The position numbers were made by a program, and so were the translations under genes. DNA of 25,113 nt from a virus: positions 1-25,113 of IMG/VR virus record IMGVR_UViG_3300037193_000759; one strand, written 5' to 3'. The notes beneath the pieces were generated by a model. That model was not told the DNA's origin. It worked only from the letters and a program-made list of their open reading frames with translations, and made no database searches. Positions 1 to 22,450 of the stretch are shown piece after piece; within the stretch, counting starts at the first letter, position 1, and each line of letters opens with the position of its first letter.

Positions 1-468
1 GCCCGCTCTTTCGACCTGGATGAGGACGAGCGCGGCGAGATCACCATGCTGCTGGAGAAGGCCGCGAAGATCCGCGAGTCTGCGGGCCGGCTGGCTGGGC
101 AGTGGGAGGACCCGATCGAGAAGCACCTCCTCAACGCCACCAGCCTGTCCTCCGCGGCTGGTGGACCGAAGCGGGACGGCGTGCCGGGCCGGAACGTGCT
201 GAACCACACGCCGGAGCAGCGCATGCAGATGGAAGCGCTGCGAGGCTGCCTTGTAGCCATGACGACGACGCTGGGTCGGGACGTGGCGCGGGTGCGGGAG
301 ATGGCAGAGATCATCGGCGGCGGCATGACCGAGACGCGGCTCGGCAAGCTCCTGCGCGACGCGGGGGCTGGCGGCACCGTCAAGGTCGACATCGAGGGCG
401 TGGGCCGTGTGAACGGCTACCAGAAGGCCGACATCGCCGACGCGTTGAGCCTCCTCGAAGGTAACTGA
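1..468 (+). CDS. 3' part of an unidentified protein (5' end outside window)
   Basis: The reading frame is open from base 1 to the TGA at 466-468, giving at least 155 residues; the start lies upstream. The first ATG inside (46) is not a convincing start because the frame continues before it without a stop. The last 60 residues look like a small winged-helix unit: a helical stretch containing MTETRLGKLLRDAG, then short strands and GVGRVNGYQKADIADAL. Similar C-terminal units occur in actinobacterial replication, DUF3631-type and FtsK-like ATPases, so a DNA-processing role is possible but only inferred. No ATPase motif is visible in the part present. Confidence 0.8.
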   Translation, partial: ARSFDLDEDERGEITMLLEKAAKIRESAGRLAGQWEDPIEKHLLNATSLSSAAGGPKRDGVPGRNVLNHTPEQRMQMEALRGCLVAMTTTLGRDVARVREMAEIIGGGMTETRLGKLLRDAGAGGTVKVDIEGVGRVNGYQKADIADALSLLEGN

Positions 469-493
469 ACGGCTCGCAATATGTGAGGTTTGC

Positions 494-641
494 CCCAGAC
501 TGCCACCCGGACAGTGCCCGGAATGCCCCGGACTATCCACCTCGTCAACCCGGACCACACCCGGACGCTGTCCGGACACTGTCCACCCTACGTCCACCCC
601 CGTCCGGGGTGCAGTCCTGGGCAAACCATCCCATGTCCACC
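494..641. repeat. Phased ~11-bp repeat array around a central palindrome
   Basis: Non-coding stretch between the first gene and the gene at 682. Exact CCCGGAC copies start at 506, 527, 549 and 560; near copies at 494 (CCCAGAC) and 517 (CCCGGAA). The palindrome GTCCGGAC sits at 570-577. To its right come copies in the opposite orientation: GTCCACC at 581, 592 and 635, GTCCGGG at 602 and GTCCTGG at 614. Steps are 10-12 bases or multiples of that, so all copies face one side of the helix. Motif centres mirror each other at 10.5, 21.5, 43.5 and 64.5 bases from the palindrome centre. The period is not a multiple of 3, which argues against coding. It could be an operator array, origin iterons or a centromere-like site. 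Confidence 0.65.
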
Positions 642-681
642 TGAACAAACCACCACAAACCCGAAACGGAGAAGATCACCC

Positions 682-1083
682 ATGTCCAAGTGCTGGCAGC
701 CCGGCGACGCCAAGAAGTTCGCCAAGCAGGCCAAACTCAACACCCCCTACTACGTCGTCCGCGACATGGCCACCAACCTGGCCCCCTACGAAGACAAGCG
801 CACCTACAGCGAGATCGTCTTCACCGAACGACGGCCCTTCACCAACACCCCCAGCGCCGGCTCCATGGACGCCGTCCAGTTCTGCCAGAACTACGGCCCC
901 GTCTACGACACCCCGCCCCAGGGCCTCCGCAACCTCGCCGGACCCGCCCCCCAGGTCGCCGGACCCCTCCCGAACGGCTACGAGGGCGTCCTCGACGAAG
1001 CCGAACTCCGCGGCCTCGAGAAGCAGGTCGCCCAGGGTAGCGACCCCCGCAAGCGCCGCCCCCTCGGCGGCTGGCACGTCTGA
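682..1083 (+). CDS. Hypothetical protein, 133 aa
   Basis: I chose the ATG at 682 because ACGGAGAAG, a good ribosome binding site, lies 9-16 bases before it. The frame runs open further upstream to 490, but that extension is the phased repeat array and has no binding site. The protein is 133 residues, hydrophilic, with no membrane segment and no motif I recognise. It has a basic N-terminus (SKCWQPGDAKKFAKQ) and ends in DPRKRRPLGGWHV. It is the first of a run of small same-strand genes, and the upstream array may control it. Function unknown. Confidence 0.75.
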   Translation: MSKCWQPGDAKKFAKQAKLNTPYYVVRDMATNLAPYEDKRTYSEIVFTERRPFTNTPSAGSMDAVQFCQNYGPVYDTPPQGLRNLAGPAPQVAGPLPNGYEGVLDEAELRGLEKQVAQGSDPRKRRPLGGWHV

Positions 1084-1086
1084 CCC

Positions 1087-1281
1087 ATGTCTGACTACGC
1101 GGCCCTGTATCAGCAGGCTGCGCGTGATGCGGATGTCGACCGAGCCCGCGCAGTCGTCGATTCGGCTCGGCGCGCCGCCAACGGCGGCCTGATGACCCCC
1201 TACGAGATCGCGGAGTTTTTCGACGCCGTCGAGGAGCTACCAATGCTCTCCCTGCTCGACGTCGTCACCAGCCGCGGCTGA
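1087..1281 (+). CDS. Small hypothetical protein, 64 aa
   Basis: ATG at 1087, only 3 bases after the preceding stop, so probably translated by coupling. The product is a small acidic, mostly helical protein with no known motif. The C-terminal half (TPYEIAEFFDAVEELPMLSL) suggests an amphipathic helix that could mediate an interaction. It belongs to the block of small accessory genes. Function unknown. Confidence 0.6.
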   Translation: MSDYAALYQQAARDADVDRARAVVDSARRAANGGLMTPYEIAEFFDAVEELPMLSLLDVVTSRG

Positions 1282-1303
1282 CAACCGATTGAAAGGACAC
1301 GAC

Positions 1304-1480
1304 ATGAACCAGCAGCAGGCCGTAGAGGAAGCCGCCCGCGAGGTGATCGCGCACGGCGGCCCGGACTGCCTCACCGACCCGAAACAGGTCATGCGCGCGG
1401 TAGGCCGCGCCTACGACCTCGGCGCGACCGCGGAAGACATCAAGGCCGAGATGCGCCGCCAGCGCGGCGAAGAGCAGTAG
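1304..1480 (+). CDS. Small hypothetical protein, 58 aa
   Basis: A TTG at 1289 opens the frame, but the ATG at 1304 is preferred because GAAAGGA (1291-1297) lies about 6 bases before it. The 58-residue product begins MNQQQAVEEAAREVIAHGG and ends in a charged helix (AEDIKAEMRRQRGEEQ). It is helical and soluble, with no recognised family. It lies in the same small-gene block, 22 bases after the previous stop. Confidence 0.65.
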   Translation: MNQQQAVEEAAREVIAHGGPDCLTDPKQVMRAVGRAYDLGATAEDIKAEMRRQRGEEQ

Positions 1481-1520
1481 CCGGACTCCACCTCCACCCC
1501 GACAGACCGAGGAGAAACCG

Positions 1521-1742
1521 ATGACGCAAAACCGAACGCCGAAGATCGGCATGCGCCTCGCTGATCCCGGCATCGCCTCCGACAACTACGGCATCACCTG
1601 CTGCGGCAGCAGCGGATGCGGCGGTGACGAGCCCATGCGCAGGGCCAGCGCCGGCGCCCTCGTCTGCCCCCACTGCGACTGCGTCGTCGCCTACGACAAC
1701 TTGACCATCACCGGCATCAGCCGCTGCAAGCACTGCCGATAG
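1521..1742 (+). CDS. Small zinc-ribbon-like protein, 73 aa
   Basis: ATG at 1521 follows GAGGAGA (about 1509-1515). The 73-residue product has eight cysteines, at 27, 28, 33, 49, 52, 54, 69 and 72. The pairs CPHC (49-52) and CKHC (69-72) form a typical four-cysteine zinc-ribbon arrangement; the role of the CCGSSGC cluster further up is unclear. Such small proteins in phages often bind nucleic acid or a host protein, but nothing here shows the target. The gene is followed closely by the repeat/hairpin at 1750-1788. Confidence 0.75.
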   Translation: MTQNRTPKIGMRLADPGIASDNYGITCCGSSGCGGDEPMRRASAGALVCPHCDCVVAYDNLTITGISRCKHCR

Positions 1743-1749
1743 CCAAGCC

Positions 1750-1788
1750 GGGGCGCCCCTTCAGCCTGCCAGCACACAGGGGCGCCCC
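1750..1788. terminator. Inverted/direct repeat GGGGCGCCCC, possible terminator
   Basis: GGGGCGCCCC occurs at 1750-1759 and again at 1779-1788. As each copy is its own reverse complement, the two can pair into a 10-bp GC stem with a 19-base loop. No T-run follows, so it may be a weak, non-canonical terminator or a protein-binding repeat. It sits in the 86-base gap after the zinc-ribbon gene. Confidence 0.4.
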
Positions 1789-1800
1789 TTCCACCCACCA

Positions 1801-1812
1801 CGCGCATGCGCG
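1801..1812. repeat. 12-bp perfect palindrome
   Basis: CGCGCATGCGCG reads the same on both strands. It lies 17 bases before the next ATG (1829), just before a weak ribosome binding site (AGAAGG at 1814-1819). It could be an operator or affect translation of the next gene; there is no further evidence. Confidence 0.3.
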
Positions 1813-1828
1813 CAGAAGGCACCCCAAC

Positions 1829-2323
1829 ATGACCACGACCCGCGCACCAGCAGCAAGCCCACCCAAGACCGCCACGAAGCCGCTCACCTTCGACCAGCGC
1901 CTCGCCCTCGCCGCCCTCGCCGTCGACGCCCGCATCAACACCCAGCCCCTCAACCTCGCCGACGTCATCCGGCTGCCCGAGGCGGCCCCGCTCCCACTCA
2001 CCCCCACCGCTGCACCCTGCCCGTACAACACGCCTATCGCCGGGCTACTCCACCAGGCCCGGCAGCGGCTCGAACAGGACGGCTGGTGCAGGGGCCAACT
2101 CCGAGACGAACAAGGCGCCATGTGCCTCATCGGAGCCATCCGCACCGAAGCCAGCACCCGAGCCGACGCCGACGACGCCTGCGTGCTGCTCCTCGAAGCC
2201 ATCCGCCGGGACTTCCCCGACGCAGCAACCGTGCCCTCATTCAACGACGCCTGGCAGAACCCCCGACAACCCGCGCGCTACCTCGAACGCGCCGCTGAAC
2301 TCGCCCACGCCCGCAGCCTGTAA
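1829..2323 (+). CDS. DUF6197-like protein, 164 aa
   Basis: ATG at 1829. Residues 1-20 are a low-complexity Thr/Ala/Pro stretch. Residues 68-104 carry the segment that suggests the family: a helix (IAGLLHQARQRLEQDGW), then GWCRGQLRDEQGAMCLIGAI, where a Trp-Cys/Gly turn is followed by a CL(I/L)GA motif. This pattern recurs in DUF6197 proteins of actinobacteria and their phages, whose function is unknown. The C-terminal part contains FNDAWQNPRQPARYLERAAELA, also typical of that family's end. The family call is from memory of the motif and should be checked with a profile search. Confidence 0.75.
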   Translation: MTTTRAPAASPPKTATKPLTFDQRLALAALAVDARINTQPLNLADVIRLPEAAPLPLTPTAAPCPYNTPIAGLLHQARQRLEQDGWCRGQLRDEQGAMCLIGAIRTEASTRADADDACVLLLEAIRRDFPDAATVPSFNDAWQNPRQPARYLERAAELAHARSL

Positions 2324-2346
2324 CCCGCCCGAAAGGACAATCCGCC

Positions 2347-2499
2347 TTGGGTATCAGCATCAGCCACGGAGTCCCCTCCACCCGATCCGCCCTCACCATC
2401 AGCAACCTCGGCCACCAGCACGGCGGCGCCGCCCACGTCGACCAAACCGCCCACATCACGGCCATCGCGATCGCCGCGCTCGGCGTCGCCGCTGGCTGA
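2347..2499 (+). CDS. Small hypothetical protein, 50 aa, TTG start
   Basis: A TTG at 2347 is preceded by GAAAGGA (2331-2337) at a normal 9-base spacing, and the frame stays open for 50 residues to TGA at 2497-2499. The product is rich in Ala, His and Ile, with a hydrophobic C-terminal third (HITAIAIAALGVAAG) that could be a short membrane-interacting helix. The same GAAAGGA box precedes the gene at 1304, which supports translation. No family recognised; the low-information sequence keeps confidence modest. Confidence 0.5.
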   Translation: MGISISHGVPSTRSALTISNLGHQHGGAAHVDQTAHITAIAIAALGVAAG

Positions 2500-2532
2500 C
2501 TACGCGACAGCTGTGCCATGAGGGAGAAGCCG

Positions 2533-3074: not shown

Positions 3075-3317
3075 ATGGACGTCACCGAGCTGTACCCCAA
3101 CGACCTCGTCTACGAGCACGAAGCCACCGAAGCCACAGGGGTTCCCGGCCCGGTCATCCGGCAGTGGGCCAGGCGCGGGAAGATCCAGCGCTTCCAGGGC
3201 AACGGCCAACTCTCCGGGCAAGGCCACGAGTACAAAACCATGTACGCCCTCCCCGAGATCGAAGCCCGAGCCGCGACCTATCGGCCCATGCCGCAACGGG
3301 CGCGGCGGGCGGCGTGA
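3075..3317 (+). CDS. MerR/excisionase-type helix-turn-helix protein, 80 aa
   Basis: I chose the ATG at 3075, which follows GGGGGAGG (3063-3070) at 4 bases. The open frame before it would run through the terminator at 3026-3054. Residues 8-36 (PNDLVYEHEATEATGVPGPV then IRQWARRGKI) form a helix-turn-helix of the MerR/Xis kind, where a Trp-Ala-Arg-Arg-Gly step leads into a wing. The wing region (37-57) includes GHEYKTMYAL, and EIEARA begins the last helix. Such proteins bind DNA and in phages act as regulators or accessory factors for packaging or excision. As the first gene of the late region it may be a late regulator, but that is inference. Confidence 0.8.
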   Translation: MDVTELYPNDLVYEHEATEATGVPGPVIRQWARRGKIQRFQGNGQLSGQGHEYKTMYALPEIEARAATYRPMPQRARRAA

Positions 3318-6368: not shown

Positions 6369-6824
6369 ATGCCAGGAAATGGCCCTCTTCCGAAGGACCC
6401 GTCTCAGCGGCGCCGGCGCAACGCCGACCCGGTAGCGACGACGGTTCTCCCGGCCAACGGTCCCGAAGTCCCGACCCCGGAGTTGCCGGGTGGGCACGAC
6501 TACGACTCCCGCACGCTGGCCTGGTACGAGACGTGGCGGTCGAGTCCGCAGGCGGCGACGTTTCTTCCGACGGACTGGCAGCGGCTGCACATGCTGGCCG
6601 AGTTGGTGCAGCAGTACTGGGAGGAGCCGAGGAAGGAACTGCTGGCGGAGATCCGCCTGAACGAGGCTTCTCTGGGTGGTACGGCCGCGGACCGGATGAG
6701 GTTGCGCTGGACGGTCGCCGAGCCCGAGGAGCGGACTCCGCGACGGTCGGCGGCGAAGTCGCGATCTGCCGCTTCACGGCGGGACCGAGTGCTGAAGGTC
6801 GTCGATGGCTCGGCGGAAGGCTGA
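6369..6824 (+). CDS. terS: Terminase small subunit, 151 aa
   Basis: The ATG at 6369 lies 8 bases after GAGG (6357-6360); a GTG at 6360 overlaps this box and is rejected. The N-terminus (PLPKDPSQRRRRNADP) is the basic start typical of actinophage small terminases, followed by a Pro-rich link and a helical core (SRTLAWYETWRSSPQAATFL, DWQRLHMLAELVQQYW). The C-terminal part is basic (RRSAAKSRSAASRRDRVLK), suited to contact DNA or the large subunit. The small subunit recognises the packaging site and controls the large subunit. The gene overlaps the large terminase gene by 20 bases, which supports the call. Confidence 0.85.
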   Translation: MPGNGPLPKDPSQRRRRNADPVATTVLPANGPEVPTPELPGGHDYDSRTLAWYETWRSSPQAATFLPTDWQRLHMLAELVQQYWEEPRKELLAEIRLNEASLGGTAADRMRLRWTVAEPEERTPRRSAAKSRSAASRRDRVLKVVDGSAEG

Positions 6825-8424
6825 CCCGGACAGGTTCGCCTCGTTGGGTTTCGCCGCGATCGACTGGATCGAGCACTACCTGTGCCATGGGCCGGGCGAC
6901 GTTCAGGGCGAGGACTTGGTCATCGACGATGAGATGGCCGCGTTCATCGTCAAGGCGTATCGGCTTGACCCTGTCACAGGGCGCCGATTGGTGAACCGGG
7001 CGTTCTTGTCGCGGCCGAAGGGCCGCGCGAAGAGTGAACTGGCTGGCGCGCTGGTGTGCTTTGAGGCCCTGGGACCGTGCCGATTCGACGGCTGGGACGC
7101 GAAGGGTGACCCTGTTGGCCGACCGCAGGTGTATCCGTTCATCCGCTGTCTGGCGACGGAGGAGAACCAGTCCGGGAACACCTACGACAACGTCACCGCG
7201 ATGCTCGAGCACCTGGTCGAGCACTCGGGTGACGAGTTCCCGGGGATCGATCTGGGTCGGTCGGCGCAGACGTCGAGCCGCATCTTTATCGAGGGTGGCG
7301 GGGAGATCGTCCCGTCGACGTCGTCCGGTGCAGCCAAGGACGGCGGTAAGGAGACCTTCGCGGTCTTCGACGAGACGCACCTGTACGTCCTGCCCGAGCT
7401 GAAGTCGATGCACAAGACGGTGCGCCGCAACCTGGTGAAGCGGCGAGCTGCGGAGCCGTGGTCTCTGGAGACGTCGACGATGTACGCAGTCGGCGAGGAC
7501 AGCGTCGCGGAAGCCACGCACGAGTACGCGAACGCGGTGAAAGCCGGCCGGGTGCGCGACGGTGGCCTGCTCTTCGACCACCGCGAGGCGCCGCACGTCG
7601 AGGATCTCCACGACGATGCGCAACTGCTGCCGGCGCTGCAGTTCGTGTACGGGGATGCTGCTGGGTGGATGGATCTGGAGCGGATCGCGTCGGATATGCG
7701 GGAGCCGGATACGGACCCCGCGGATGCGCGCCGCTACTTCCTGAATCAGCCGGGCACGGCATCGGCGAAGGCGTTCGACAAGGCCGAGTGGAAGGCGTTG
7801 GCCAGGCCCGACTTCACGGTCCCGGAGAAGGAGTCCATCACGATCGGCTTCGACGGGGCGAAGTGGAAGGACTCGACCGGGTTCGTTGCCACACACCTGG
7901 AGACGGGCTTTCAGTGGCCGCTCGGTGTGTGGGAGGCGCCGCTGAACAAGCGGGAGGCAGAGGACTGGGAGGTTCCCGAGCGCGAGGTAGACCTTTGTCT
8001 GGCGCTGGCCTTCGACACCTACAAGGTGGTCCGTGTCTATGCGGATCCGCCGTGGTGGGAGGACGCCGTAGCTCGCTGGCAGGGCAAGTACGGGGAGAAG
8101 ATCGTCGCTGAGTGGTGGACGCACCGGGACCGGCAGATGGCATTCGCGCTGCGCGCGTACCGGACGGCGATGTCGGGCGCCGAGCTGTCGCACGACGGTG
8201 ACGAGGCCTTTGCTCGGCATATCGGGAACGCGGTGAAACGGCCGGCCCGCGCGAAGGATGACGAGGGCAAGCCGATGTGGACGATCCAGAAGGACCGCCA
8301 CGACTCTCCACGAAAGATCGACCTGTCTATGGCGGGCTGCCTGTCCTGGGAAGCCCGCCGTGACGCTATCGCGGCCGGCGCCAACAAGCCCCGGAAGAAG
8401 TCGAAGATGTTGATCCTGCGGTGA
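6805..8424 (+). CDS. terL: Terminase large subunit, 539 aa
   Basis: ATG at 6805 inside the small-subunit gene. The N-terminal ATPase has a Walker A of the actinophage type (SRPKGRAKSE, residues 69-78), where Lys-Ser replaces the usual Gly-Lys-Ser/Thr, and a Walker B at 185-190 (FAVFDE) with the catalytic Glu190. The C-terminal RNase H-like nuclease shows acidic residues in GFDGAK (Asp350), in VYADPPWW (Asp413) and near LSHDGDEAFARHIGNA (Asp464/Asp466). The ATPase drives DNA into the procapsid and the nuclease cuts it at the ends. The length is usual for the family. It is followed by the portal gene, as in most siphoviruses. Confidence 0.95.
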   Translation: MARRKADPDRFASLGFAAIDWIEHYLCHGPGDVQGEDLVIDDEMAAFIVKAYRLDPVTGRRLVNRAFLSRPKGRAKSELAGALVCFEALGPCRFDGWDAKGDPVGRPQVYPFIRCLATEENQSGNTYDNVTAMLEHLVEHSGDEFPGIDLGRSAQTSSRIFIEGGGEIVPSTSSGAAKDGGKETFAVFDETHLYVLPELKSMHKTVRRNLVKRRAAEPWSLETSTMYAVGEDSVAEATHEYANAVKAGRVRDGGLLFDHREAPHVEDLHDDAQLLPALQFVYGDAAGWMDLERIASDMREPDTDPADARRYFLNQPGTASAKAFDKAEWKALARPDFTVPEKESITIGFDGAKWKDSTGFVATHLETGFQWPLGVWEAPLNKREAEDWEVPEREVDLCLALAFDTYKVVRVYADPPWWEDAVARWQGKYGEKIVAEWWTHRDRQMAFALRAYRTAMSGAELSHDGDEAFARHIGNAVKRPARAKDDEGKPMWTIQKDRHDSPRKIDLSMAGCLSWEARRDAIAAGANKPRKKSKMLILR

Positions 8425-8439
8425 GGGCGAGGTGGGCTG

Positions 8440-9888
8440 GTGGAGCGCACTGAGCTGGGCTGGTTGAAGCATCTGATCGACTGCCATGACCGGGAGAAGA
8501 AGGATCTGAAGCTGCTGGACTCGTATTACGAGGGTGAGCAGCCGCTCAGCTATCTGGCGCCAGAGCTGCAGGCTGAGATGGATGAGCGGATCCGGCAGGT
8601 GGTCATCAACTGGCCCCAGTTGGTTGCCGACTCCATCGAGGAGCGTCTCGATGTGGAGGGTTTCCGTTTCCCGGATGAGGCGGAGGCGGATGAGGAGTTG
8701 TGGCGGATCTGGCAGGCGAACCGGCTAGATGCCAAGAGCCACCAAGGACACCTTGACGCTCTGGTGATGCGCCGCTGCTACGTGATCGTGGGCAGCCGGG
8801 AGGATGATCCGTCGACTCCGTTGATCACGGTTGAGTCGCCGCTGGACGTGTACGCGGAACATGATCCGCGCACGGGTCAGGTGGCTGCGGCGGTGAAGCG
8901 CTGGTGCGAGGAGTACGAGGGCCAATCGCCGGTTGACCACGCCACGCTGTACCTGCCGGAGTCCACCTCTTGGTGGACGAAGGACCGTTCCGGCGAGTGG
9001 GTGGAGGACGTGGGCGACGATGGCGAATCGGTGCGGGATGCCCACGGGCTGGGCGAGGTGCCGGTGGTGCCGCTGGCGAACCGAGCCCGGCTGAAGTGCC
9101 CTGGCGGGGTGTCGGAGTTGAAGGCCGTGATTTCGATCTCGGACGCAGCCTGCAAGGTCGCCACGGACATGATGGTGTCTGCCGAGTACCACGCCACCCC
9201 CCGCCGGGTGGCGTTCGGGTTCGGCGAGGAGGACTTCGTCGACGAGAAGGGCCGCCGTGTCAGCGCGTTCTCGCGGGTGATCGGCCGGATCTGGGCGACG
9301 GAGAAGAACCGCAAGGAAGACGGCGCGGATGTCGTGCAGTTCTCGGAGGCGGATCTGAAGAACTTCCACGACACGATCAACCAGTTGGCCCGGCTAGTGG
9401 CCAGCCTGGCGGGTCTGCCTCCGCACTTCCTGGGCTACGCAACCGAGAACCCTGCGAGCGCGGACGCGATCCGCTCGAGCGAGTCCCGGCTGGTGAAGCG
9501 CGCCGAGCGTAAGCAGCGCGACTGGGGCGAGGCGTGGGAGCAGGTTATGCGTCTGGCGCTGCGCTTCCGCGATGGCGACTGGGATCCGCGGGTGCTGTCG
9601 CTGGAGACGATCTGGCGGGACGCGTCGACTCCAACGATCGCCCAGAAGGCGGACGCCGCAGTCAAACTCCACACGGCGAAGATCGTGCCGTTGCGTCAGA
9701 CCCGCGAAGACATGGGGTACACGCAGGCGCAGATCAAGCGCATGGAGGAGGAGGACGAGGCCGCGGCGGAGGACGCGATGAAGCGGATCCTCGCCGGGGA
9801 CTTCGCCGCTCTGGAGGCCGGTCAGAAGCCGCCGCTGAAGGACGCCGACGAGGATGAGCCGACTCCTGAGCCTGCGGGTGTGTCGTGA
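8440..9888 (+). CDS. Portal protein, SPP1 gp6-like, 482 aa
   Basis: GTG at 8440 after a purine-rich stretch (GAGGTGGG). The N-terminal part contains LLDSYYEGEQPLSYLAPEL, VVINWPQLVADSIEERLDVE and GFRFPDE, the pattern of SPP1 gp6-type portal proteins in actinophages. The middle has ITVESPLDVYAEHDPRTGQV, then a crown/clip region. Residues around FHDTINQLARLVASLAGLPP, HFLGY and NPASADAIRSSESRLVKRAE are the conserved stem region. The protein forms the dodecameric ring through which DNA enters and onto which the neck assembles. The acidic C-terminal tail is common. Order terL-portal-MuF agrees. Confidence 0.93.
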   Translation: MERTELGWLKHLIDCHDREKKDLKLLDSYYEGEQPLSYLAPELQAEMDERIRQVVINWPQLVADSIEERLDVEGFRFPDEAEADEELWRIWQANRLDAKSHQGHLDALVMRRCYVIVGSREDDPSTPLITVESPLDVYAEHDPRTGQVAAAVKRWCEEYEGQSPVDHATLYLPESTSWWTKDRSGEWVEDVGDDGESVRDAHGLGEVPVVPLANRARLKCPGGVSELKAVISISDAACKVATDMMVSAEYHATPRRVAFGFGEEDFVDEKGRRVSAFSRVIGRIWATEKNRKEDGADVVQFSEADLKNFHDTINQLARLVASLAGLPPHFLGYATENPASADAIRSSESRLVKRAERKQRDWGEAWEQVMRLALRFRDGDWDPRVLSLETIWRDASTPTIAQKADAAVKLHTAKIVPLRQTREDMGYTQAQIKRMEEEDEAAAEDAMKRILAGDFAALEAGQKPPLKDADEDEPTPEPAGVS

Positions 9889-10937
9889 CGACGGCGCCGG
9901 AGCGACTGTCGTCCGTCGAGCTGGCTGAGGCCTATTACGTGGCGCAGGCTCGTCTGACGCGTTCGGCGGTGAACCGGGTTCAGGTGTTGTGGCGGGAGTT
10001 GGACTCGCGGGACCTGACGGGCTCGTGGGAGGCCCTGGTGGGGCCGGGCGTGGTGGATGCGGTGGCGGCTGGGCAACTGGCCGCCGCCGCCCAGGCCGAC
10101 CCCTACCTAGATGCCGTGGAGACCGCGGACGGTGGCGAGCCGGATGGTTCGGCTCGTATCCGGGCGGCCACGTTCGCCGGGCATGCGTCGGACGGTAGGG
10201 CTCTGGACACTCTGCTGTATCTGCCGGTCATCACAACGAAGCAGGGCATCGCGGCCGGGCTGTCGGATGTGGACGCGATGATGCGCGGCCTCAATCAGCT
10301 GCTGCGGATGGCGGCCACGCAGGTAACGGACGCCGGCCGCACAGCGGTGGGCGCGGGGATTGCGGGCAGGCGCACGATTCAGGGCTACATCCGGATTGCG
10401 GCGGCTCCGTGCTGCGCGCGCTGCGCGATCCTGTCGGGCAAAGAGTTCGGTTGGAACCGCGGGTTTCAGAGGCATCCTCGCTGTGACTGCATCCACATGC
10501 CGGCCACGCTGATTGCTCGCGGTCGAGGCGGACGCGGGCGTCCTGCCTTGCCGGACAGACCAGGGATGGTGACGAACGCCGGCGACTACTTCCGCAGCCT
10601 GTCGCGGCGGGAGCAGGACCGCATCTTCACTGTTGCTGGCGCCCGGGCGATCCGTGACGGCGCGGACATCACGTCGATCGTGAACGCGCGGCGCGGCATG
10701 TACGCCGCGTCGGCCTACGGCCGCCGACTGCGGGCAACCCGTGAGGGGGCGACGACACGCGGCGCGTTCTACCGCTCGGAGCGGGCCCGCGCCATCGCCC
10801 GCGGCCAGGTTCCGGCGACCATCGGTCGGGCCTACCGGCTGCGGACGCCGCGGCTTATGCCCGAAGAGATTTACAGGCTTGCCGGATCTCGCGATGAGGC
10901 CATCGCGATGCTCCGGCGCTTCGGCTACATCGACTAG
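9885..10937 (+). CDS. MuF-like minor head (capsid maturation) protein, 350 aa
   Basis: GTG at 9885 overlaps the portal stop by 4 bases. The N-terminal half is helical. The diagnostic segment at residues 174-206 (AAPCCARCAILSGKEFGWNR then GFQRHPRCDCIHMP) has a Cys cluster (176, 177, 180) and HPRCDC (197-202). This is the Mu gpF-type domain found in phage proteins encoded just after the portal. These proteins are packaged in small numbers in the procapsid and may be injected with the DNA. The C-terminal part (RRGMYAASAYGRRLRATREG, MPEEIYRLAGSRDEAIAMLR) is basic. No separate toxin domain is visible. Confidence 0.88.
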   Translation: MTTAPERLSSVELAEAYYVAQARLTRSAVNRVQVLWRELDSRDLTGSWEALVGPGVVDAVAAGQLAAAAQADPYLDAVETADGGEPDGSARIRAATFAGHASDGRALDTLLYLPVITTKQGIAAGLSDVDAMMRGLNQLLRMAATQVTDAGRTAVGAGIAGRRTIQGYIRIAAAPCCARCAILSGKEFGWNRGFQRHPRCDCIHMPATLIARGRGGRGRPALPDRPGMVTNAGDYFRSLSRREQDRIFTVAGARAIRDGADITSIVNARRGMYAASAYGRRLRATREGATTRGAFYRSERARAIARGQVPATIGRAYRLRTPRLMPEEIYRLAGSRDEAIAMLRRFGYID

Positions 10938-11000
10938 CCGATCTTTCGCCGGCTGTGCGCAAGGCGTGGCCGCCTGATCCCGCAACGGGAGACCCATCAC

Positions 11001-11684
11001 ATGCACAACACCCGTAGTAGCTGGCTGCCTGCCGCCCAGAGCGCGGGCTGGTTCCGGCTGAACCGTCACGACGACCCCGAACCCACCGACCCGGCACCGG
11101 AAGACCCGGAGCCGACGCCGGAGGGCGATCCGGAGCCCGATCCCGAGGGCGCCGACAAGCTCGGCGACGCCGGGAAGAAGGCGCTGGACAAGATGAAGGC
11201 CGAGCGGGCGGCGGCGAAGAGGGCGGCGGCCGAGGAGAAGAAGCGCGCCGACGAACTGGCCCGCAAGGTGGCCGAGTTCGAGGACCGCGACAAGTCCGAA
11301 CTGGAGAAGGCCACCAGCCGTGCGGAGGCCGCTGCGAAGCGCGCCGAGGCGGCGACGGCTCGCGCTGTGCGGGCTGAAGTGAAGGCTGCGGCCAGCGAGT
11401 TCGCCGACCCGGATGACGCGCTCGCGCACCTCAACGGCAAGTTCGCCCAGTACGCCAACGACTCTGGGGAGATCGACACTGAGGCGATCGTCTCGGATCT
11501 GTCCGATCTCCTGGAGCGGAAGCCGCATTTGAAGAGGCAGGCTCCCGCCCCGGAGGCTCCGAAGGCACCGAAGCCGGATCCGTCACAGGGGCCGCGCAAG
11601 GAGCCGGCGCCGGTCGACTACCGCAACGCGTCCCGCGCGGACATTCAGAAGGCGGCGGCCGAGCTGGGGGTCCGCCTGCGCTGA
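11001..11684 (+). CDS. Capsid scaffolding protein, 227 aa
   Basis: ATG at 11001 after ACGGGAGAC. The product is typical of scaffolds: an acidic Pro-rich N-terminal region, then a long charged coiled coil (about residues 50-130, rich in Ala, Glu, Lys and Arg) and a Pro-rich basic C-terminal region with RNASRADIQKAAAELGVRLR. The N-terminus contains WFRLNRHD at 17-24, nearly the same as WFRLDRHD at 10-17 of the major capsid protein. The DNA is also similar there. Scaffold guides capsid shell assembly and is removed on maturation. The shared motif next to a Prp-like protease gene suggests N-terminal processing. Confidence 0.9.
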   Translation: MHNTRSSWLPAAQSAGWFRLNRHDDPEPTDPAPEDPEPTPEGDPEPDPEGADKLGDAGKKALDKMKAERAAAKRAAAEEKKRADELARKVAEFEDRDKSELEKATSRAEAAAKRAEAATARAVRAEVKAAASEFADPDDALAHLNGKFAQYANDSGEIDTEAIVSDLSDLLERKPHLKRQAPAPEAPKAPKPDPSQGPRKEPAPVDYRNASRADIQKAAAELGVRLR

Positions 11685-11881
11685 TGATCCGTATCCGTGC
11701 CCGGCTGGGCGCCGGCCGGACCTCGATCGAGGTCGACGGCCACGAGGGCCATGTCGAAGACGGGCGGGTCTGCGCCGCCATCACGGCGATCACCCAAACC
11801 GCGCTGCTGGGGCTGGAGCAGTACGCCCTGCAGTTCCCGGACCTCGTGTCCGTCGAGATCACAACCGAGGAGAACTCATGA
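11684..11881 (+). CDS. Prp-like cysteine protease, 65 aa
   Basis: ATG at 11684 shares one base with the scaffold stop (TGATG), so translation is coupled. The protein shows the Prp family pattern (ribosomal-processing cysteine protease): an N-terminal strand (MIRIRARL), then SIEVDGHEGHVEDG with the catalytic His20, then VCAAITAITQTALLGLEQ with the catalytic Cys30. The His and Cys are spaced much as in Prp, where GHA and CAAVS are the conserved sites. It is shorter than most cellular Prp proteins (about 105-110 residues). In Staphylococcus aureus, Prp removes the N-terminal extension of ribosomal protein L27 and also trims phage 80alpha scaffold and capsid. Here the gene lies between scaffold and capsid, so I infer it processes both. 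Confidence 0.8.
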   Translation: MIRIRARLGAGRTSIEVDGHEGHVEDGRVCAAITAITQTALLGLEQYALQFPDLVSVEITTEENS

Positions 11882-13206
11882 CCACCCTGACCGCCCGCCG
11901 GTCGTGGTTCCGGCTCGACCGGCACGACGTCCGGTCCACCCTGCCGGCCGCGATCCGCGCCATCATGCAGAACGGCCTGCTCGACGGCATGTTCCGCGAG
12001 TCGCTGATGCCGGAGCTGCTGTTCCCGCAGATCGCGGACATCGAGCCGTGGCAGGGAGCCAAGGGCGACACGAAGATCATGACCCGGAACGGGCTCATGA
12101 CCCCGGACCCCACCCCGACGACCGGTTCGGACGCTTCCACGGGCTCGTACAGCATCGAGCAGTGGACCGTGACGATGGACCAGTACGGCAAGTCCATCGA
12201 CACAGACCTGCTGCAGTCGTCGATGACGCAGGCGTCGAAGTACCTCAACGACGTGTCCCGGCTCGGCATTCACGCCGGGCAGACCATCAACCAGCTCGCC
12301 CGGAACAAGCTTTACAAGGGCTACGCGGGCGGGCGCACCTACTGCCGCACTGCGGGCACCTCGGACACGTCGATTGTGGTCGCGTCCACCGACGGCTTCA
12401 CCCACAAGCTGGTGAACGGCGTCCCGACCGCCGTGTCCGCGTCGAACGCGCTGGACATCACCATCGAGGGCGTCGCCAACACCGTCACCGGCGTCGACAC
12501 GGGTACAGGCACCCTGACCCTGGGCACGGCGCGCGTCGACGTCGTAGGCGACTCGGTGGTGTCTTCGCAGGCCCCGTACTCGGTGCGCGCGGGCACATCG
12601 AACGACTCGGCGTTCGACCTGAGCGCAGGCGACCTGATCACCTTCGCGCACTTCCGGGCTGCCGTAGCGCGGCTGCGGCGCATGTTCGTGCCTCCGGCCG
12701 AGGGCGGCAACTACATCGCCCACATCGACAGCGTGACGGAGTCGCAGCTGTTCGAGGACACCGAGTTCCAGAACCTGTACCAGGGGCGAGCGGACTCGTC
12801 GACGTACCGGGATCTGGCGATCGGCGTGTTCGGCGGCATCGTGTGGGTGCGCAACGAGGTCGTGCCATACCTGACCACTGCGACCACCGGGTACGAGGAC
12901 CTGACCACGACGGTGCACCGGCCGATCGTGGTGGGTGCGGGCGCGCTGATCGCGGCGCCGTTCGAGAACCCGGCAGGTCTGCTGCGGGAGACCGGCGTTT
13001 CGGACGTCCCCGAGATCACCATGATCAACGTCGCGCCGGGTGTCGACGTGGCTCGGATCGTGCGTCCGCCGCAGGACCGCTATCAGCAGAACGTGTCCAC
13101 GACCTGGTCGTGGGTCGGCGACTACGGCGTCCCCTCGGACTCGCTGGCAAACGGCGACTCGGCCCTGTTCAAGCGGGCCGTGCTGCTGGAGCACTCCGCG
13201 AACTGA
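11878..13206 (+). CDS. Major capsid protein (HK97-fold, probable), 442 aa
   Basis: ATG at 11878 overlaps the previous stop by 4 bases and follows GAGGAGA (11867-11873). The N-terminus includes WFRLDRHD (10-17), shared with the scaffold. LLFPQIADIEPWQGAKGDTK, TMDQYGKSIDTDLLQSSM and NDVSRLGIHAGQTINQLARN resemble the P22-coat/N4-gp56-like group of capsid proteins, with an inserted beta domain near residues 155-260 (rich in Thr, Val, Asp). The late part has AHIDSVTESQLFEDTEFQNL and HRPIVVGAGALIAAPFENPA. It would form the icosahedral shell. Size and position after the scaffold support the call. The subfamily is less certain. Confidence 0.9.
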   Translation: MTTLTARRSWFRLDRHDVRSTLPAAIRAIMQNGLLDGMFRESLMPELLFPQIADIEPWQGAKGDTKIMTRNGLMTPDPTPTTGSDASTGSYSIEQWTVTMDQYGKSIDTDLLQSSMTQASKYLNDVSRLGIHAGQTINQLARNKLYKGYAGGRTYCRTAGTSDTSIVVASTDGFTHKLVNGVPTAVSASNALDITIEGVANTVTGVDTGTGTLTLGTARVDVVGDSVVSSQAPYSVRAGTSNDSAFDLSAGDLITFAHFRAAVARLRRMFVPPAEGGNYIAHIDSVTESQLFEDTEFQNLYQGRADSSTYRDLAIGVFGGIVWVRNEVVPYLTTATTGYEDLTTTVHRPIVVGAGALIAAPFENPAGLLRETGVSDVPEITMINVAPGVDVARIVRPPQDRYQQNVSTTWSWVGDYGVPSDSLANGDSALFKRAVLLEHSAN

Positions 13207-13212
13207 CCGCAC

Positions 13213-13239
13213 GCCCCGCCCGGCAGGCCTGGGCGGGGC
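13213..13239. terminator. GC hairpin after the major capsid gene, possible partial terminator
   Basis: GCCCCGCCC (13213-13221) pairs with GGGCGGGGC (13231-13239), a perfect 9-bp stem with a 9-base loop, 6 bases after the capsid stop. No T-run follows. It may partly stop transcription or protect the 3' end of the abundant capsid mRNA, lowering expression of downstream genes. Confidence 0.5.
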
Positions 13240-13257
13240 CTCTGGAAGGAGGGTCTC

Positions 13258-13596
13258 GTGCGCGTTCGCGTTGACGAGAACATCAAGCTGTTCCAGGGCC
13301 ACGTGCCCGTGCGGCTCGCCGCAGGCCAGGAAGTATCCGGTGAGCTGGCGGCCCTGCTGCTGGAGCGGGCGCCGAAGAAGGTGACCCGCCTCGACGCCGA
13401 TCCGGAGGAGGGCGGGGGAGGCGACGGCTCGAAGGAGCCGCCCGCTTCCCTGGCTGACGCTTCCACGGCTACCGAGGTACTGGCCTGGGTCGGCGAGGAC
13501 CAGGAACGTGCCGCCGAGGCGCTGGCCGCGGAAGAGGCCGCGGACAAGCCGCGGTCGACACTGGTGAAGCAGCTCAAGAAGCTCGCCGAGGACTGA
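13258..13596 (+). CDS. Capsid-adjacent hypothetical structural protein, 112 aa
   Basis: GTG at 13258 follows GGAAGGAGGG (13244-13253). The N-terminal 50 residues (MRVRVDENIKLFQGHVPVRL, VSGELAALLLERAPKKVTRL) are a small domain. A Gly/Glu linker follows, then a C-terminal helical motif (STATEVLAWVGEDQERAAEA through LVKQLKKLAED). I have seen this C-terminal pattern at the end of many actinophage proteins coded right after the capsid gene. It could be a head accessory or linker protein. Function uncertain. Confidence 0.75.
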   Translation: MRVRVDENIKLFQGHVPVRLAAGQEVSGELAALLLERAPKKVTRLDADPEEGGGGDGSKEPPASLADASTATEVLAWVGEDQERAAEALAAEEAADKPRSTLVKQLKKLAED

Positions 13597-13608
13597 GGGG
13601 AGGCTGCC

Positions 13609-14235
13609 GTGGCTCTTCCCCCGCTGGCGACGGCGGCCGACCTTGGCAGTGCGGCGGATTCTGCGTCGGCTGCGGATGTGGCGTTGGCGCTGCGCTGGGC
13701 GTCGGCCCGGGTGCGCCGCTACACCGGACAGGACATCAGCTTCGTCGCCAACGACACCATCGAAGTGCCTGGCGGCGAACGGGTCCTTGTGGTGCCGCAG
13801 CGCCCGCTCGTCGTCGATGCCACGCACCCGCTGACCGTGGTGGAGATCGAGGTGCCGGGCAGTGTCGAGACGACGCTGACGGAGAACACGGACTTCACGC
13901 GGCTCGGCAACGAGCTGACCCGCGGCTACCCGTGGCATGCGCCGACGCGGACGATGGGATGGCCGTGGCGGCAGCAGCAGGGTGTGTGGGCTCCGAAGGT
14001 GCGCCTCATCCAGAGCCACGGCTACCTGGAGATCCCTGACGATGTTGTCGAGATCGTCGCTGATCTGGCGAAGATGAACCTCGCCAATCCGGAGAACCTC
14101 CGCAGTGTCGCGATCGACGACTACTCGCGGACGTTCGCGTCGGAGACGATCGGCGGGGCCCGGCTGACGAGGGACCACAAGAACGATCTGCGCCCCTACA
14201 AACGCAGTGGCGCGTTCTCGGTGAGGACGTCGTGA
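13609..14235 (+). CDS. Head-tail connector (adaptor) protein, 208 aa
   Basis: GTG at 13609 after GGGGAGG. The N-terminal half is helical (DLGSAADSASAADVALALRW, ASARVRRYTGQDIS), followed by beta strands (DTIEVPGGERVLVVPQRPLV) and further helices (DVVEIVADLAKMNLANPENL). This matches gp6/gp15-type adaptor proteins, which form a ring under the portal and link it to the tail. Residues ARVRRYTGQ near the start are a typical sign. Located directly after the head genes and before head closure, as expected. Confidence 0.85.
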   Translation: MALPPLATAADLGSAADSASAADVALALRWASARVRRYTGQDISFVANDTIEVPGGERVLVVPQRPLVVDATHPLTVVEIEVPGSVETTLTENTDFTRLGNELTRGYPWHAPTRTMGWPWRQQQGVWAPKVRLIQSHGYLEIPDDVVEIVADLAKMNLANPENLRSVAIDDYSRTFASETIGGARLTRDHKNDLRPYKRSGAFSVRTS

Positions 14236-14648
14236 CTGCGCTTGAGGCCGCGCTGGCGGCTGGACGCCGTGAGGCTGAGGCGCTGATGCGGGACACGGTC
14301 ACCCTGTACCGACCGGGCCCGGACATCTTCGACCGGACCAACGGCCAGACGACGCCCGGGCAGCCCGCGGTCAACTTCTACAGCGGAAAGGCGCGGGTGA
14401 AGGCGGAGCAGCTCGCCGACTCGGAGGTGCAGGCGGGCGAGCAGGAAGTCACGCTGCGCCAGTACAAGGTGTCACTGCCGTTCTCGACCGCTCTGCCCAC
14501 GTCGGGGGAGCGGCCGGCGCCGGGTGATGTGGTGCACGTGACCGCATCGCCGGATGCGCGGCTGGTGGGTGTGCGCCTGTGGGTGACGGGAGTGCAGTAC
14601 TCGGGCACAGCCACGGCGTGGCGGATCATTGCGGAGGACCGGTCATGA
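14232..14648 (+). CDS. Head closure protein (DUF6093-like), 138 aa
   Basis: GTG at 14232 overlaps the connector stop by 4 bases. The N-terminal helix (ALAAGRREAEALMRDTVTLY) is followed by a beta-rich body with YSGKARVKAE, RQYKVSLPFSTALP and DVVHVTASPDARLVGVRLWV. This pattern fits DUF6093 proteins, which I place as head-closure (Hc1) proteins of actinophages. They would seal the connector and receive the tail. Position supports this. Confidence 0.82.
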   Translation: MTALEAALAAGRREAEALMRDTVTLYRPGPDIFDRTNGQTTPGQPAVNFYSGKARVKAEQLADSEVQAGEQEVTLRQYKVSLPFSTALPTSGERPAPGDVVHVTASPDARLVGVRLWVTGVQYSGTATAWRIIAEDRS

Positions 14649-15037
14649 CGATCAACGCGAACACCAGGCAGCTGGACGGCCTCGCTGCCGTGTTCCGTTT
14701 CAACGCGGGCCGCGCGCAGGTGCAGGCGGTCGCCGTGGTCAGCCGCGGGGCGTTGAACGTGAAGAACGGGTGGCGGGCCAACGCCACGGCCACGGCGGGC
14801 CGGCATGCTCGCCTGTACCCGTCGTCGATCAGCTATGACATGCGCCCGCATCCGACGGGCGCGTCGGCGGAGATCGGCCCGGACAAGGGCCGTCCGCAGG
14901 GCCCGCTCGGGAACCTGCTGGAGTTCGGGTCGGTGAACAACCCGCCGCACATGGATGGGGCGCGGGCGCTGGCTGCTGAGGCGCCGGCGTTCACGCTGCA
15001 TGTGGCGGCGATTGCCGCCCAGTTGGGCCGCGGGTGA
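14645..15037 (+). CDS. HK97 gp10-like neck / tail completion protein, 130 aa
   Basis: ATG at 14645 shares the ATGA overlap with the previous stop. The protein has an N-terminal helix, AVVSRGALNVKNGWRANATA, LYPSSISYDMRPHPTGASAE and then PLGNLLEFGSVNNPPH. The E-F-G-S--NPPHMDGARAL segment is the diagnostic end of HK97 gp10-like proteins. These join the head and tail. The longer frame upstream of 14645 overlaps the head-closure gene and is not used. Confidence 0.85.
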   Translation: MTINANTRQLDGLAAVFRFNAGRAQVQAVAVVSRGALNVKNGWRANATATAGRHARLYPSSISYDMRPHPTGASAEIGPDKGRPQGPLGNLLEFGSVNNPPHMDGARALAAEAPAFTLHVAAIAAQLGRG

Positions 15038-15438
15038 GTACCCCGGCCGCCGTTCTCCCGCATCGTGACGCGGTCAAGGCGGCGTTGGAGGCCGCTCAGT
15101 TGACGGTGGGGCTTGGCGGGGCCCCCGATCCTGTGCCGTCGTCGCGCAGGTATGTCGTTCTGTATTTCGCGCCGGGCCAGTCGGTGTCTGAGTCGCTGGC
15201 GGACCGTCGCACGGACTGGGATGGCGTGTTCCAGGTGACGTGTGTGGGCCCGGCGGAGGAGCAGTGCCTGTGGCTGGCCGACAAGGTCCGCACGGCGTTG
15301 CACACCCCGGTCACGGTCGCCGGGCGGCAGGTGTGGCGGCCGGAGGAGCTCGGCGGTCCTCCGGTGCTGCGCGACGACGACGTGTCCCCGCCGCTGTTCT
15401 ACGTGCCGATCCAGTACCACCTCAAGTCCACGTCCTAG
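15034..15438 (+). CDS. Tail terminator protein, 134 aa
   Basis: GTG at 15034 overlaps the previous stop by 4 bases. The alternating pattern is typical of tail terminators: HRDAVKAALEAAQLTVGLGG, then RRYVVLYFAPG, FQVTCVGPAEEQCLWLADKV and final PLFYVPIQYHLKS. It would form a ring at the head-proximal end of the tail tube and stop its growth. It follows the gp10-like gene as in related siphoviruses. Confidence 0.85.
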   Translation: MSTPAAVLPHRDAVKAALEAAQLTVGLGGAPDPVPSSRRYVVLYFAPGQSVSESLADRRTDWDGVFQVTCVGPAEEQCLWLADKVRTALHTPVTVAGRQVWRPEELGGPPVLRDDDVSPPLFYVPIQYHLKSTS

Positions 15439-15448
15439 GAGGAGCTCC

Positions 15449-15781
15449 GTGGCCACTCTCAGCACTCAAACCATCGTTGCCGCCGGGCTCGACCCGACTT
15501 ACGCCGCCGCCTCCGGCGGCGGGGACAAGGTCACGCCGGGTCCGACGACATTCCTGCATGTCATCAACGGCGGCGGCAGCGGCATCACCGTGACCGTGGC
15601 GACGCCCGGAAATTTCTACGCCGCTGTGGCCAATCCCGATCTGACGGTGACGGTCGGTGCGTCCGGGGAGCAGATGATCCCTATTCCCGCCACGCCGTTC
15701 GCGGATCCGTCTGACTCTGGTCTCGCCTCCGTCTCCTATTCGGGCGTGACTAGCGTGACCGTGGCCGCCCTGCGTATCTGA
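15449..15781 (+). CDS. Small structural protein, beta-rich, 110 aa
   Basis: GTG at 15449 after GGAGGAG (15438-15444). The protein is rich in Gly, Thr, Val and Ala, with a regular strand pattern: FLHVINGGGSGITVTVATPG, NPDLTVTVGASGEQMIP and a final YSGVTSVTVAALRI. It looks like a single beta-sandwich domain, a type often encoded among head and tail genes of actinophages. It may decorate the virion, but no direct evidence shows where. A clear terminator follows. Confidence 0.75.
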   Translation: MATLSTQTIVAAGLDPTYAAASGGGDKVTPGPTTFLHVINGGGSGITVTVATPGNFYAAVANPDLTVTVGASGEQMIPIPATPFADPSDSGLASVSYSGVTSVTVAALRI

Positions 15782-15804
15782 CCCCCGCCCCGTAAGCCCA
15801 GCTC

Positions 15805-15828
15805 GCCCCGCCGTGTCGGGGCTTTTTT
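15805..15828 (+). terminator. Rho-independent terminator between head and tail genes
   Basis: GCCCCG (15805-15810) pairs with CGGGGC (15817-15822), loop 6 bases, followed by six T (15823-15828). It lies 24 bases after the stop of the small structural gene and 25 bases before the major tail gene. It should end or reduce head-gene transcription; tail genes would need read-through or their own promoter. Confidence 0.85.
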
Positions 15829-15852
15829 CATGCCCCGAAAGGAGCGCACGTC

Positions 15853-16332
15853 ATGTCCGACGTGATCAACGACGGCAAGACCCGGGTCTACTGGGTGACC
15901 ACCATCGCGAACATCGCGGCGCCGACGGTCGCCGAGTTGAACGCCGGGCTGGACTTCACGGCCCGCATCACCCCGGACGGTCTGAACATCCCGGCGGAGA
16001 CCGCCGACGTCGACAACTCCAGCCTGGCGTCGACGTTCACCACCAACCGGGCTGGCCGCCGCAGCTTCAGCCCCGAGGTGACGTTCAAGCGGGGCGACAG
16101 CGCTGGCGACGACCTGCCGTGGACGACGCTCACCTACCAGACCCTCGGCTACCTCGTCGTGCGGCGCGTCCTCGCCTACACGACGGCCTGGGCTGCCACG
16201 CAGAAGTGCGAGGTCTACCCGGTCGAGTGCGGCGAGAGGAACAGCATCCCGCCGGCCCCGAACGAGGTCGCCAAGTTCACGAGTTCGATGAAGCTTCGGG
16301 ATGAGCCGAACACCAGCGCGACGGTGGCCTGA
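15853..16332 (+). CDS. Major tail protein, 159 aa
   Basis: ATG at 15853 after GAAAGGAG (15837-15844), one of the strongest ribosome binding sites here, as expected for an abundant protein. The protein is beta-rich: KTRVYWVTTIANIAAPTVAE, LDFTARITPDGLNI, then RRSFSPEVTFKRGDS and LTYQTLGYLVVRRVLAY. The pattern (start with a target strand, then AP-TVAELNAG-D) is characteristic of actinophage major tail proteins. It forms the tail tube. It precedes the tail chaperone genes, as usual. Confidence 0.9.
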   Translation: MSDVINDGKTRVYWVTTIANIAAPTVAELNAGLDFTARITPDGLNIPAETADVDNSSLASTFTTNRAGRRSFSPEVTFKRGDSAGDDLPWTTLTYQTLGYLVVRRVLAYTTAWAATQKCEVYPVECGERNSIPPAPNEVAKFTSSMKLRDEPNTSATVA

Positions 16333-16847
16333 TGCCCGATATCAAGGACATCCTCGCGAAGGCGCGCCCGCGGGAGCACACGATCCGTATCTGCCTTGCC
16401 GGTGATGTGGCGGCCGAGGTGGAGCGGCTGGAGGCGGAGCTCGCGGCGACCCAGTCGTGGGTGCAGCAGTCGATCGCCGAGGCCCACCCGGGTATCGAGA
16501 TCGCCGAGGAGATCGCCGCTGCCCGGGAGCGGATGCGCGAGGCCGAGGTCGCGTTCACGTTCCGCGCCCTCGGTGCGAAGGCGTGGAGTGACCTCGTCGC
16601 GCAGCATCCGAGCGAGAAGGAAGAGGAGGCGTGGGACGACGAGTCCCTCGCCCCGGCGCTCGTGGCCGCGTCCGCTGTCGACCCGGTGATGACGCCGGAG
16701 GACGTGGCAGCCCTGTTTGAGCAGATCAACATGGGGCAGCGGCAGGAGCTGATCCAAGCGGCGTGGACGGTGAACGGGGAGGCAACGAGCGTCCCTTTCG
16801 CGTTGCACGCCTCCGCGATCCTCGCCTCCCGCACCGAAGGGAAGTAG
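16332..16847 (+). CDS. Tail assembly chaperone G, 171 aa
   Basis: ATG at 16332 shares one base with the previous stop (TGATG). The product is acidic and helical (AAEVERLEAELAATQSWVQQ; AAARERMREAEVAFTFRALG) with AKAWSDLVAQHPSEKEEEAW and TPEDVAALFEQINMGQRQEL. The KAW-DL---HP pattern and the later helix are typical of actinophage G-type tail chaperones. These keep the tape measure protein soluble and help tube polymerisation. The ribosome most often stops at 16847; a fraction shifts frame at CCCTTTC to make the GT form. Confidence 0.88.
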   Translation: MPDIKDILAKARPREHTIRICLAGDVAAEVERLEAELAATQSWVQQSIAEAHPGIEIAEEIAAARERMREAEVAFTFRALGAKAWSDLVAQHPSEKEEEAWDDESLAPALVAASAVDPVMTPEDVAALFEQINMGQRQELIQAAWTVNGEATSVPFALHASAILASRTEGK

Positions 16848-17152
16848 AGACTGCCCGGGCGTGGGGCGTGCCTCGGTCGATCTTCCTGGGCCGTCCTTGG
16901 CCGCAGCCCGGCGAGCCGCTGTGGACTGATGAGGACCGGGAGTGGGCGCTGGCCCTCGCGCACGTCGAGGCCGATGTGTGCCCGGACTGCCGCCAGCCCT
17001 GGAGCGACGCCACCGACGCGAAGAGCGAGGGCCAGTGGGAGGCGCACCTGGTGCGCTGCCACGCCTGCCACACAGCTGCCCGCACCGTGGGCCAGTTCGA
17101 GACCGGCGGCGGCGATATGCGCGGCCTGCACGTCAACTTGACCAGGGGGTGA
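16332..17152 (+). CDS. Tail assembly chaperone GT by -1 frameshift, 273 aa
   Basis: Joins 16332..16799 to 16799..17152. The second frame is -1 relative to the first, is open from 16721, and ends at TGA 17150-17152. The fusion reads ...ATSVPF then RVARLRDPRLPHRREVETAR and AWGVPRSIFLGR. The T part carries RAWGVPRSIFLG, DREWALALAHVEADVCPDC and VRCHACHTAARTV, a zinc-ribbon-like pair (CPDC, CHAC) usual for the T domain in actinophages. Conserved G/GT production is needed for correct tail length. A GTG at 16868 could start the T part alone, but it lacks a clear ribosome binding site, so the frameshift is preferred. Confidence 0.8.
16793..16799 (+). other. Programmed -1 ribosomal frameshift site CCCTTTC
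   Basis: The heptamer fits X XXY YYZ with the zero frame read as GTC CCT TTC. After slipping back one base the two tRNAs re-pair with CCC and TTT, both with good first-two-base pairing. It lies 48 bases before the G stop and inside the stretch where the -1 frame is open. No other X XXY YYZ heptamer was found between 16721 and 16847. No stimulatory RNA structure was established. Confidence 0.75.
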
Positions 17153-17155
17153 GCC

Positions 17156-22447: not shown

Positions 22448-22450
22448 ATC

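Follow-up and report, generated by a model that had tools for sequence, protein, structure and literature searches.

Plasmids of Streptomyces employ a DNA-pumping protein that moves double-stranded DNA between cells. In the Streptomyces venezuelae plasmid pSVH1, the protein TraB recognises GACCCGGA (PMC5133688), a recognition that PMC3583192, citing Vogelmann 2011, assigns to helix alpha-3 of its winged helix. The clt repeats vary between plasmids; the clt of pWTY27 covers about 175 bp, begins at the tra 3' end, and has repeats to which the Tra protein binds in footprints (PMC3583192). The plasmid-phage pZL12 (PMC4487206, PMC3583192) has a tra locus, on which its transfer depends (PMC3583192). 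AICEs carry an integrase and a single FtsK/SpoIIIE-type Tra protein that moves double-stranded DNA (PMC3218068), and they span 11.9-36.2 kb (PMC9513070). A literature search, with most subscription papers outside its reach, returned no clt described in a phage.

The window, that is, the whole stretch of DNA analysed here, comprises 25,113 bp and corresponds to positions 1 to 25,113 of IMG/VR virus record IMGVR_UViG_3300037193_000759. Judged from this sequence and its relatives, a repeat array in the gap directly 3' of the TraB stop codon is very probably a cis-acting, clt-like transfer locus for the DNA pump of TraB/FtsK type whose gene lies immediately upstream. The array and its surroundings have the following features, in window coordinates.

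1 to 468, plus strand: gene for a TraB/FtsK-type DNA translocase, present only as its 3' end (last 155 residues) and otherwise off the contig; assigned by homology to relatives
199 to 468, plus strand: C-terminal winged-helix domain of TraB, the proposed reader of the array; from AlphaFold2 and structural matches
487 to 627 (487-512 and 602-627), no strand: outer imperfect inverted repeat with 26-bp arms, GGTTTGCCC... / ...GGGCAAACC; from sequence comparison
494 to 641, no strand: putative clt-like array, left arm forward and right arm inverted, in ~11-bp steps; from tests of repeat density, phasing and dyad symmetry
506 to 577, plus strand: left-arm sites, with GGAC cores at 509, 530, 552, 563 and 574 and near copies at 494 and 517; from core mapping
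570 to 577, no strand: central palindrome GTCCGGAC, axis 573.5; from core mapping
570 to 638, minus strand: right-arm sites, with GTCC cores at 570, 581, 592, 602, 614 and 635, often GTCCACCC; from core mapping
682 to 1083, plus strand: small protein of unknown function, the next gene after the array, with a close homologue at the same place in relative L002
2518 to 2943: stand-alone FtsK-gamma domain protein without a motor domain (PF09397, E 8e-13)
3075 to 3314: MerR-like helix-turn-helix (HTH) protein, a predicted DNA binder
6805 to 23530, plus strand: head, packaging and tail genes (terminase, portal, protease, scaffold, major capsid, adaptors, major tail protein, tape measure, tail proteins); from PHROGs matches

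The gene at 1-468 shares 42-88% identity with the 3' ends of 18 viral-contig genes, and it is from relatives only that the ATPase part of TraB is known, the window holding just the last 155 residues. A blastn search of window positions 1-2500 against phages gave 0 matches, and TraB, searched by tblastn against phages, yielded just two Staphylococcus matches, both weak. The virion genes identified by PHROGs matches all lie downstream of the array and run in the same direction.

The first-pass annotation of this DNA had described CCCGGAC repeats, phased at ~11 bp and symmetric about a palindrome. The exact copies at 506, 527, 549 and 560, and that at 602 as GTCCGGG, were confirmed by position, and the near copies at 494, 517 and 614, together with GTCCGGAC at 570-577, are as it claimed. 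The real common core is GGAC, shorter than CCCGGAC, and is present as five forward copies on the plus strand and six inverted GTCC copies on the minus strand. Five exact CCCGGAC copies (four forward plus GTCCGGG at 602) fall in the 160-bp array stretch, versus at most one in other 160-bp stretches of the window, and no Markov sequence among the 3000 generated for each of two models reached five, so that the proposed comparison with shuffled controls places repeat density far above chance. Mirroring about 573.5 brings 5/5 GGAC cores base-exactly onto five of the six GTCC cores, an outcome found in 0 of 20,000 random placements and having P = 0.008 when both arms are set on random 11-bp lattices, and the dyad score of the array is 10, versus 5 at best elsewhere in the window. 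The phasing statistic gave a best period of 10.9 bp in the window alone, with P = 0.03 among shuffles with enough sites, and is a weak test by itself. The outer inverted repeat is centred on 557, off the array axis of 573.5, and its arms, TTTGCCCC and GGGGCAAACC, occur also in several close relatives. GTCCACCC is found again in the right arm of many relatives.

The layout is that of pSVH1 (NC_007431), a conjugative plasmid in which the array likewise occupies the gap right behind traB, with forward GACCCGGA copies followed by inverted TCCGGGTC and with 11-bp steps visible. The TraB of pSVH1 is a homologous ATPase with a C-terminal winged helix, although only about 28% identical, and pSVH1 itself differs: it is a plasmid of 12.7 kb in which no virion genes are annotated. 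ACCCGGA (7/8) is common to GACCCGGA and the window sites, ACCCGGAC, at 505-511, 548-554 and 559-565, and the window array contains no exact copy of GACCCGGA. At one mismatch, GACCCGGA matches four sites in the array, no denser than in the densest other stretch of the window, and it was rejected as an independent detector, not being specific enough in so GC-rich a window. The link to clt draws on the array's own motif, position and homologues. The clt of pWTY27 matches the window in its position at the tra 3' end; its repeat units, TGACACC and CCCGCCC, differ, and pWTY27 is a theta plasmid, unlike the phage carriers. In the window, multiple short repeats are found in a non-coding stretch adjoining a tra gene, and the adjoining gene encodes an FtsK-type Tra protein with a C-terminal winged helix, its ATPase part being taken from relatives. 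The GACCCGGA-TraB layout behind traB in pSVH1 and the clt at the tra 3' end in pWTY27 are among the reasons for reading the array as a probable clt-like TraB loading locus.

We compared 30 loci, comprising the window, 18 viral contigs, one genome locus, eight viral contigs that a second scan added, and two plasmids, pSVH1 and pZL1. The relatives were found through TraB, which makes TraB a constant partner by construction of the search; the informative point is that the array always accompanies TraB. Repeats occupy the gap behind the TraB stop codon at 30/30 loci, that is, in 29/29 other TraB-bearing elements, a clear outcome against the refuting case, raised in the first-pass annotation, of relatives lacking them there. 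Class-motif copies, scored at 29 of the 30 loci (pZL1 has no assigned motif), exceed dinucleotide shuffles at P<0.05 in 25, the counts of L006, L009, L019 and L052 not lying above their shuffles when taken singly. Pooled over the 29 loci, the phasing period is 11.0 bp, with a mean cosine of 0.66 versus 0.28 for the largest of 300 shuffles, which removes the worry that near copies had been picked by eye. Successive sites are most commonly spaced by 11 and 12 bp, then by 10 and 21-22, and forward copies lie mostly on the left and inverted copies on the right. The conserved features are an 11-bp lattice and a right arm that runs inverted; base-exact mirror symmetry was rejected as a family trait, being absent in most relatives. 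The dyad symmetry first described thus stands for the window and is not kept base-exactly in most relatives, and the ~11-bp phasing is carried by the pooled period. The idea of a putative protein-binding array is supported in its phased, dyad-symmetric form, but not in the functions and proteins then named.

The repeats themselves fall into motif classes, assigned by inspection among relatives that share ancestry: GGAC in most loci, GGAA in L011 and L042, GTGG in L013 and L036, GCTC in L016-L018, and GGTC in L052 and L053. As the classes were assigned by inspection, a motif-free 5-mer test weighs more. Arrays that differ more in 5-mer content belong to TraB proteins with more distant winged helices (r 0.65 between the two distances), and the correlation holds when the ATPase distance is given (partial r 0.54, Mantel P 0.0002), the converse value for the ATPase given the winged helix being -0.08. 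Control DNA 300-450 bp downstream bears no relation to the winged helix (r = -0.12). Repeat content therefore appears to track the C-terminal winged helix of TraB and not its ATPase, with shared ancestry only partly controlled. In addition, an RVNGY strand in the winged helix is present in 19/19 proteins of the GGAC class and in 0/11 others, and QVRGY is common to L013 and L036.

The last 89 residues of TraB are predicted by AlphaFold2 to form a winged helix (mean pLDDT 92.9, order H-H-H-E-E-H), and its best structural matches are the DNA-binding proteins Rex (Z 7.9), MarR and IscR, the middling Z meaning that they support the fold class only. FtsK-gamma structures were not among the matches of this fold search, an absence that counts as no evidence. 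The full-length relative L002:3273-5471 has 732 aa, with a hydrophobic stretch ahead of the ATPase, Walker A AGMTRSGKG and Walker B LLVIDELAT, and aligns to pSVH1 TraB with 28% identity over 380 aa (E 7e-33; tblastn E 1e-20). Against the family PF01580, L026 scores above the cut-off, and L002 and L025 fall below it. No spread (spd) genes were identified by profile, and Pfam gave no match for the upstream neighbour of TraB in L002, L026 or L064; the candidacy of this neighbour as a homologue of the DUF2637 protein of pZL1 was rejected, the match not being significant. In L026, the product of 2274-2915 joins a GIY-YIG nuclease domain and a GntR DNA-binding domain in one protein and adjoins a GntR/UTRA regulator upstream of TraB.

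Two further DNA binders are predicted in the window, namely the FtsK-gamma protein and the HTH protein, and a co-oriented gene follows the array, an arrangement that would also suit a transcriptional operator for downstream genes bound by either of them. The distribution of these proteins among carriers is what discounts them as binders, contrary to the first-pass annotation: in 28 other array-carrying records searched, the stand-alone FtsK-gamma protein was found in none and the HTH protein had a strong match in only six. About ten sites across some 150 bp would moreover be unusual for an operator, and we regard that role as very unlikely, although TraB binding at the array could still affect transcription. 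As separate observations, the HTH protein (3075-3314), with strong matches in those six, is common to about half of the carriers, and the FtsK-gamma protein (2518-2943) is perhaps a decoy or regulator of host FtsK.

The setting of the array was traced through the genomes of its carriers. The relative G015 is a complete-looking temperate phage, with genes in the order integrase, YqaJ recombinase, DnaC- and DnaB-like replication proteins, methyltransferase, repressor, TraB, array, terminase, portal, capsid and tape measure. A repressor-like protein of G015 (L064:3713-5197) is itself of note in fusing an HTH domain to a polypeptide deformylase domain. Iterons of a replication origin, as targets of a phage initiator, would likewise form tandem, phased repeats in non-coding DNA, and replication iterons had been suggested for this array. 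No initiator was found among the ORFs tested near it, however, and in G015 the DnaB-/DnaC-like genes, near 13.6-15.6 kb, are ~17 kb from the array at 32.7 kb. Such arrays, moreover, occur both in phages and in pSVH1, whose own rep gene lies elsewhere, and the repeat content follows the TraB winged helix, all of which makes an origin highly improbable.

Terminase (phrog_9) was matched in 11/18 relatives, portal (phrog_104) in 11/18, and either one in 12/18. In 11/11 relatives with terminase, and in the window, TraB and terminase share a strand with terminase downstream, which in L004 and L005 is so only if the contig is read as circular; no terminal direct repeats were found in these two contigs as proof of circular genomes. 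The downstream, co-oriented terminase gene would fit a packaging (pac/cos) recognition site, but in nine of the 11 relatives terminase lies 6 to about 20 kb from TraB in the linear maps, and pSVH1 and pZL1 have such arrays without a portal-family match, so that this role is extremely unlikely. With packaging, portal, capsid and tail genes in the window, integrase, repressor and helicase in G015, and Streptomyces and Kitasatospora as the named hosts of carriers, the home of the array is, on gene content, a temperate tailed-phage lineage of Streptomycetaceae, which is unusual for such a locus.

Not every carrier is a phage: L018, a circular Streptomyces plasmid of 92.6 kb, matched neither phrog_9 nor phrog_104. 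This carrier, and the fact that FtsK-family motors also segregate DNA, would be in keeping with a TraB-array pair that partitions an extrachromosomal prophage at septa, or resolves its multimers there, in the manner of FtsK, instead of moving it to other cells. We consider such a role unlikely: the closest characterised system, pSVH1, is conjugative with the same layout, and most viral carriers have a tyrosine integrase (16/27 records above the family cut-off), which makes integration probable for many of them and partition then unnecessary. The partition-type site earlier considered for the array also found no counterpart in parA or parB among the ORFs tested near it in the window.

Relative to AICEs, the carriers are alike in joining an integrase and TraB in relatives, but differ by phage replication and virion genes, the replication genes of G015 being phage-type and the window a fragment. 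In pSLE1 (NZ_LN831788), a relative of pZL12, a Streptomyces phage genome has a tra gene just ahead of terminase and capsid genes. Its Tra (L057, 71526-74960) is missed by the profile of this TraB family and is unrelated or very distant, and no phased array follows the tra gene. As a plasmid-phage with the same TraB-clt pair, pSLE1 was therefore rejected. It may be seen as a parallel design, in which a distant or unrelated Tra stands at the corresponding place before terminase, without the array.

For the clt-like locus, we infer the steps of binding, loading and DNA transfer, between mycelia or between compartments of one mycelium. TraB winged helices would bind the short GGAC-core sites, one per ~11-bp turn and on one helix face, an 8-bp site and a 3-bp spacer giving the 11-bp step that would place each of them there. 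A hexamer would then load at the array and pump circular double-stranded phage or prophage DNA through the hyphal envelope or cross-wall, and, with the two arms facing one another, the array could accept motors in both orientations.

Clt loci, TraB and a plasmid-phage with a tra locus (pZL12) are already known; new are the clt-like locus in temperate tailed phages and the series of coevolved motifs. With about 30 natural pairs of pump and loading site that differ in motif, the TraB recognition code could be read and put to the test. PMC9513070 notes that the AICE pSAM2 lacks a described clt and raises the question of TraB pores being shared between elements. The signature of a phased array behind traB would offer a way to find clt-type sites by sequence, for example where none has been described, as in pSAM2. 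As a tentative proposal, somewhat short of probable, temperate tailed phages of Streptomycetaceae may spread both as virions and as naked double-stranded DNA pumped through mycelia by their own TraB from their own clt, being at once conjugative element and virus, with the TraB winged helix and clt repeats coevolving such that each phage pumps only its own DNA. If true, this virus family would have conjugation as a second way of moving, one that spares the host cell.
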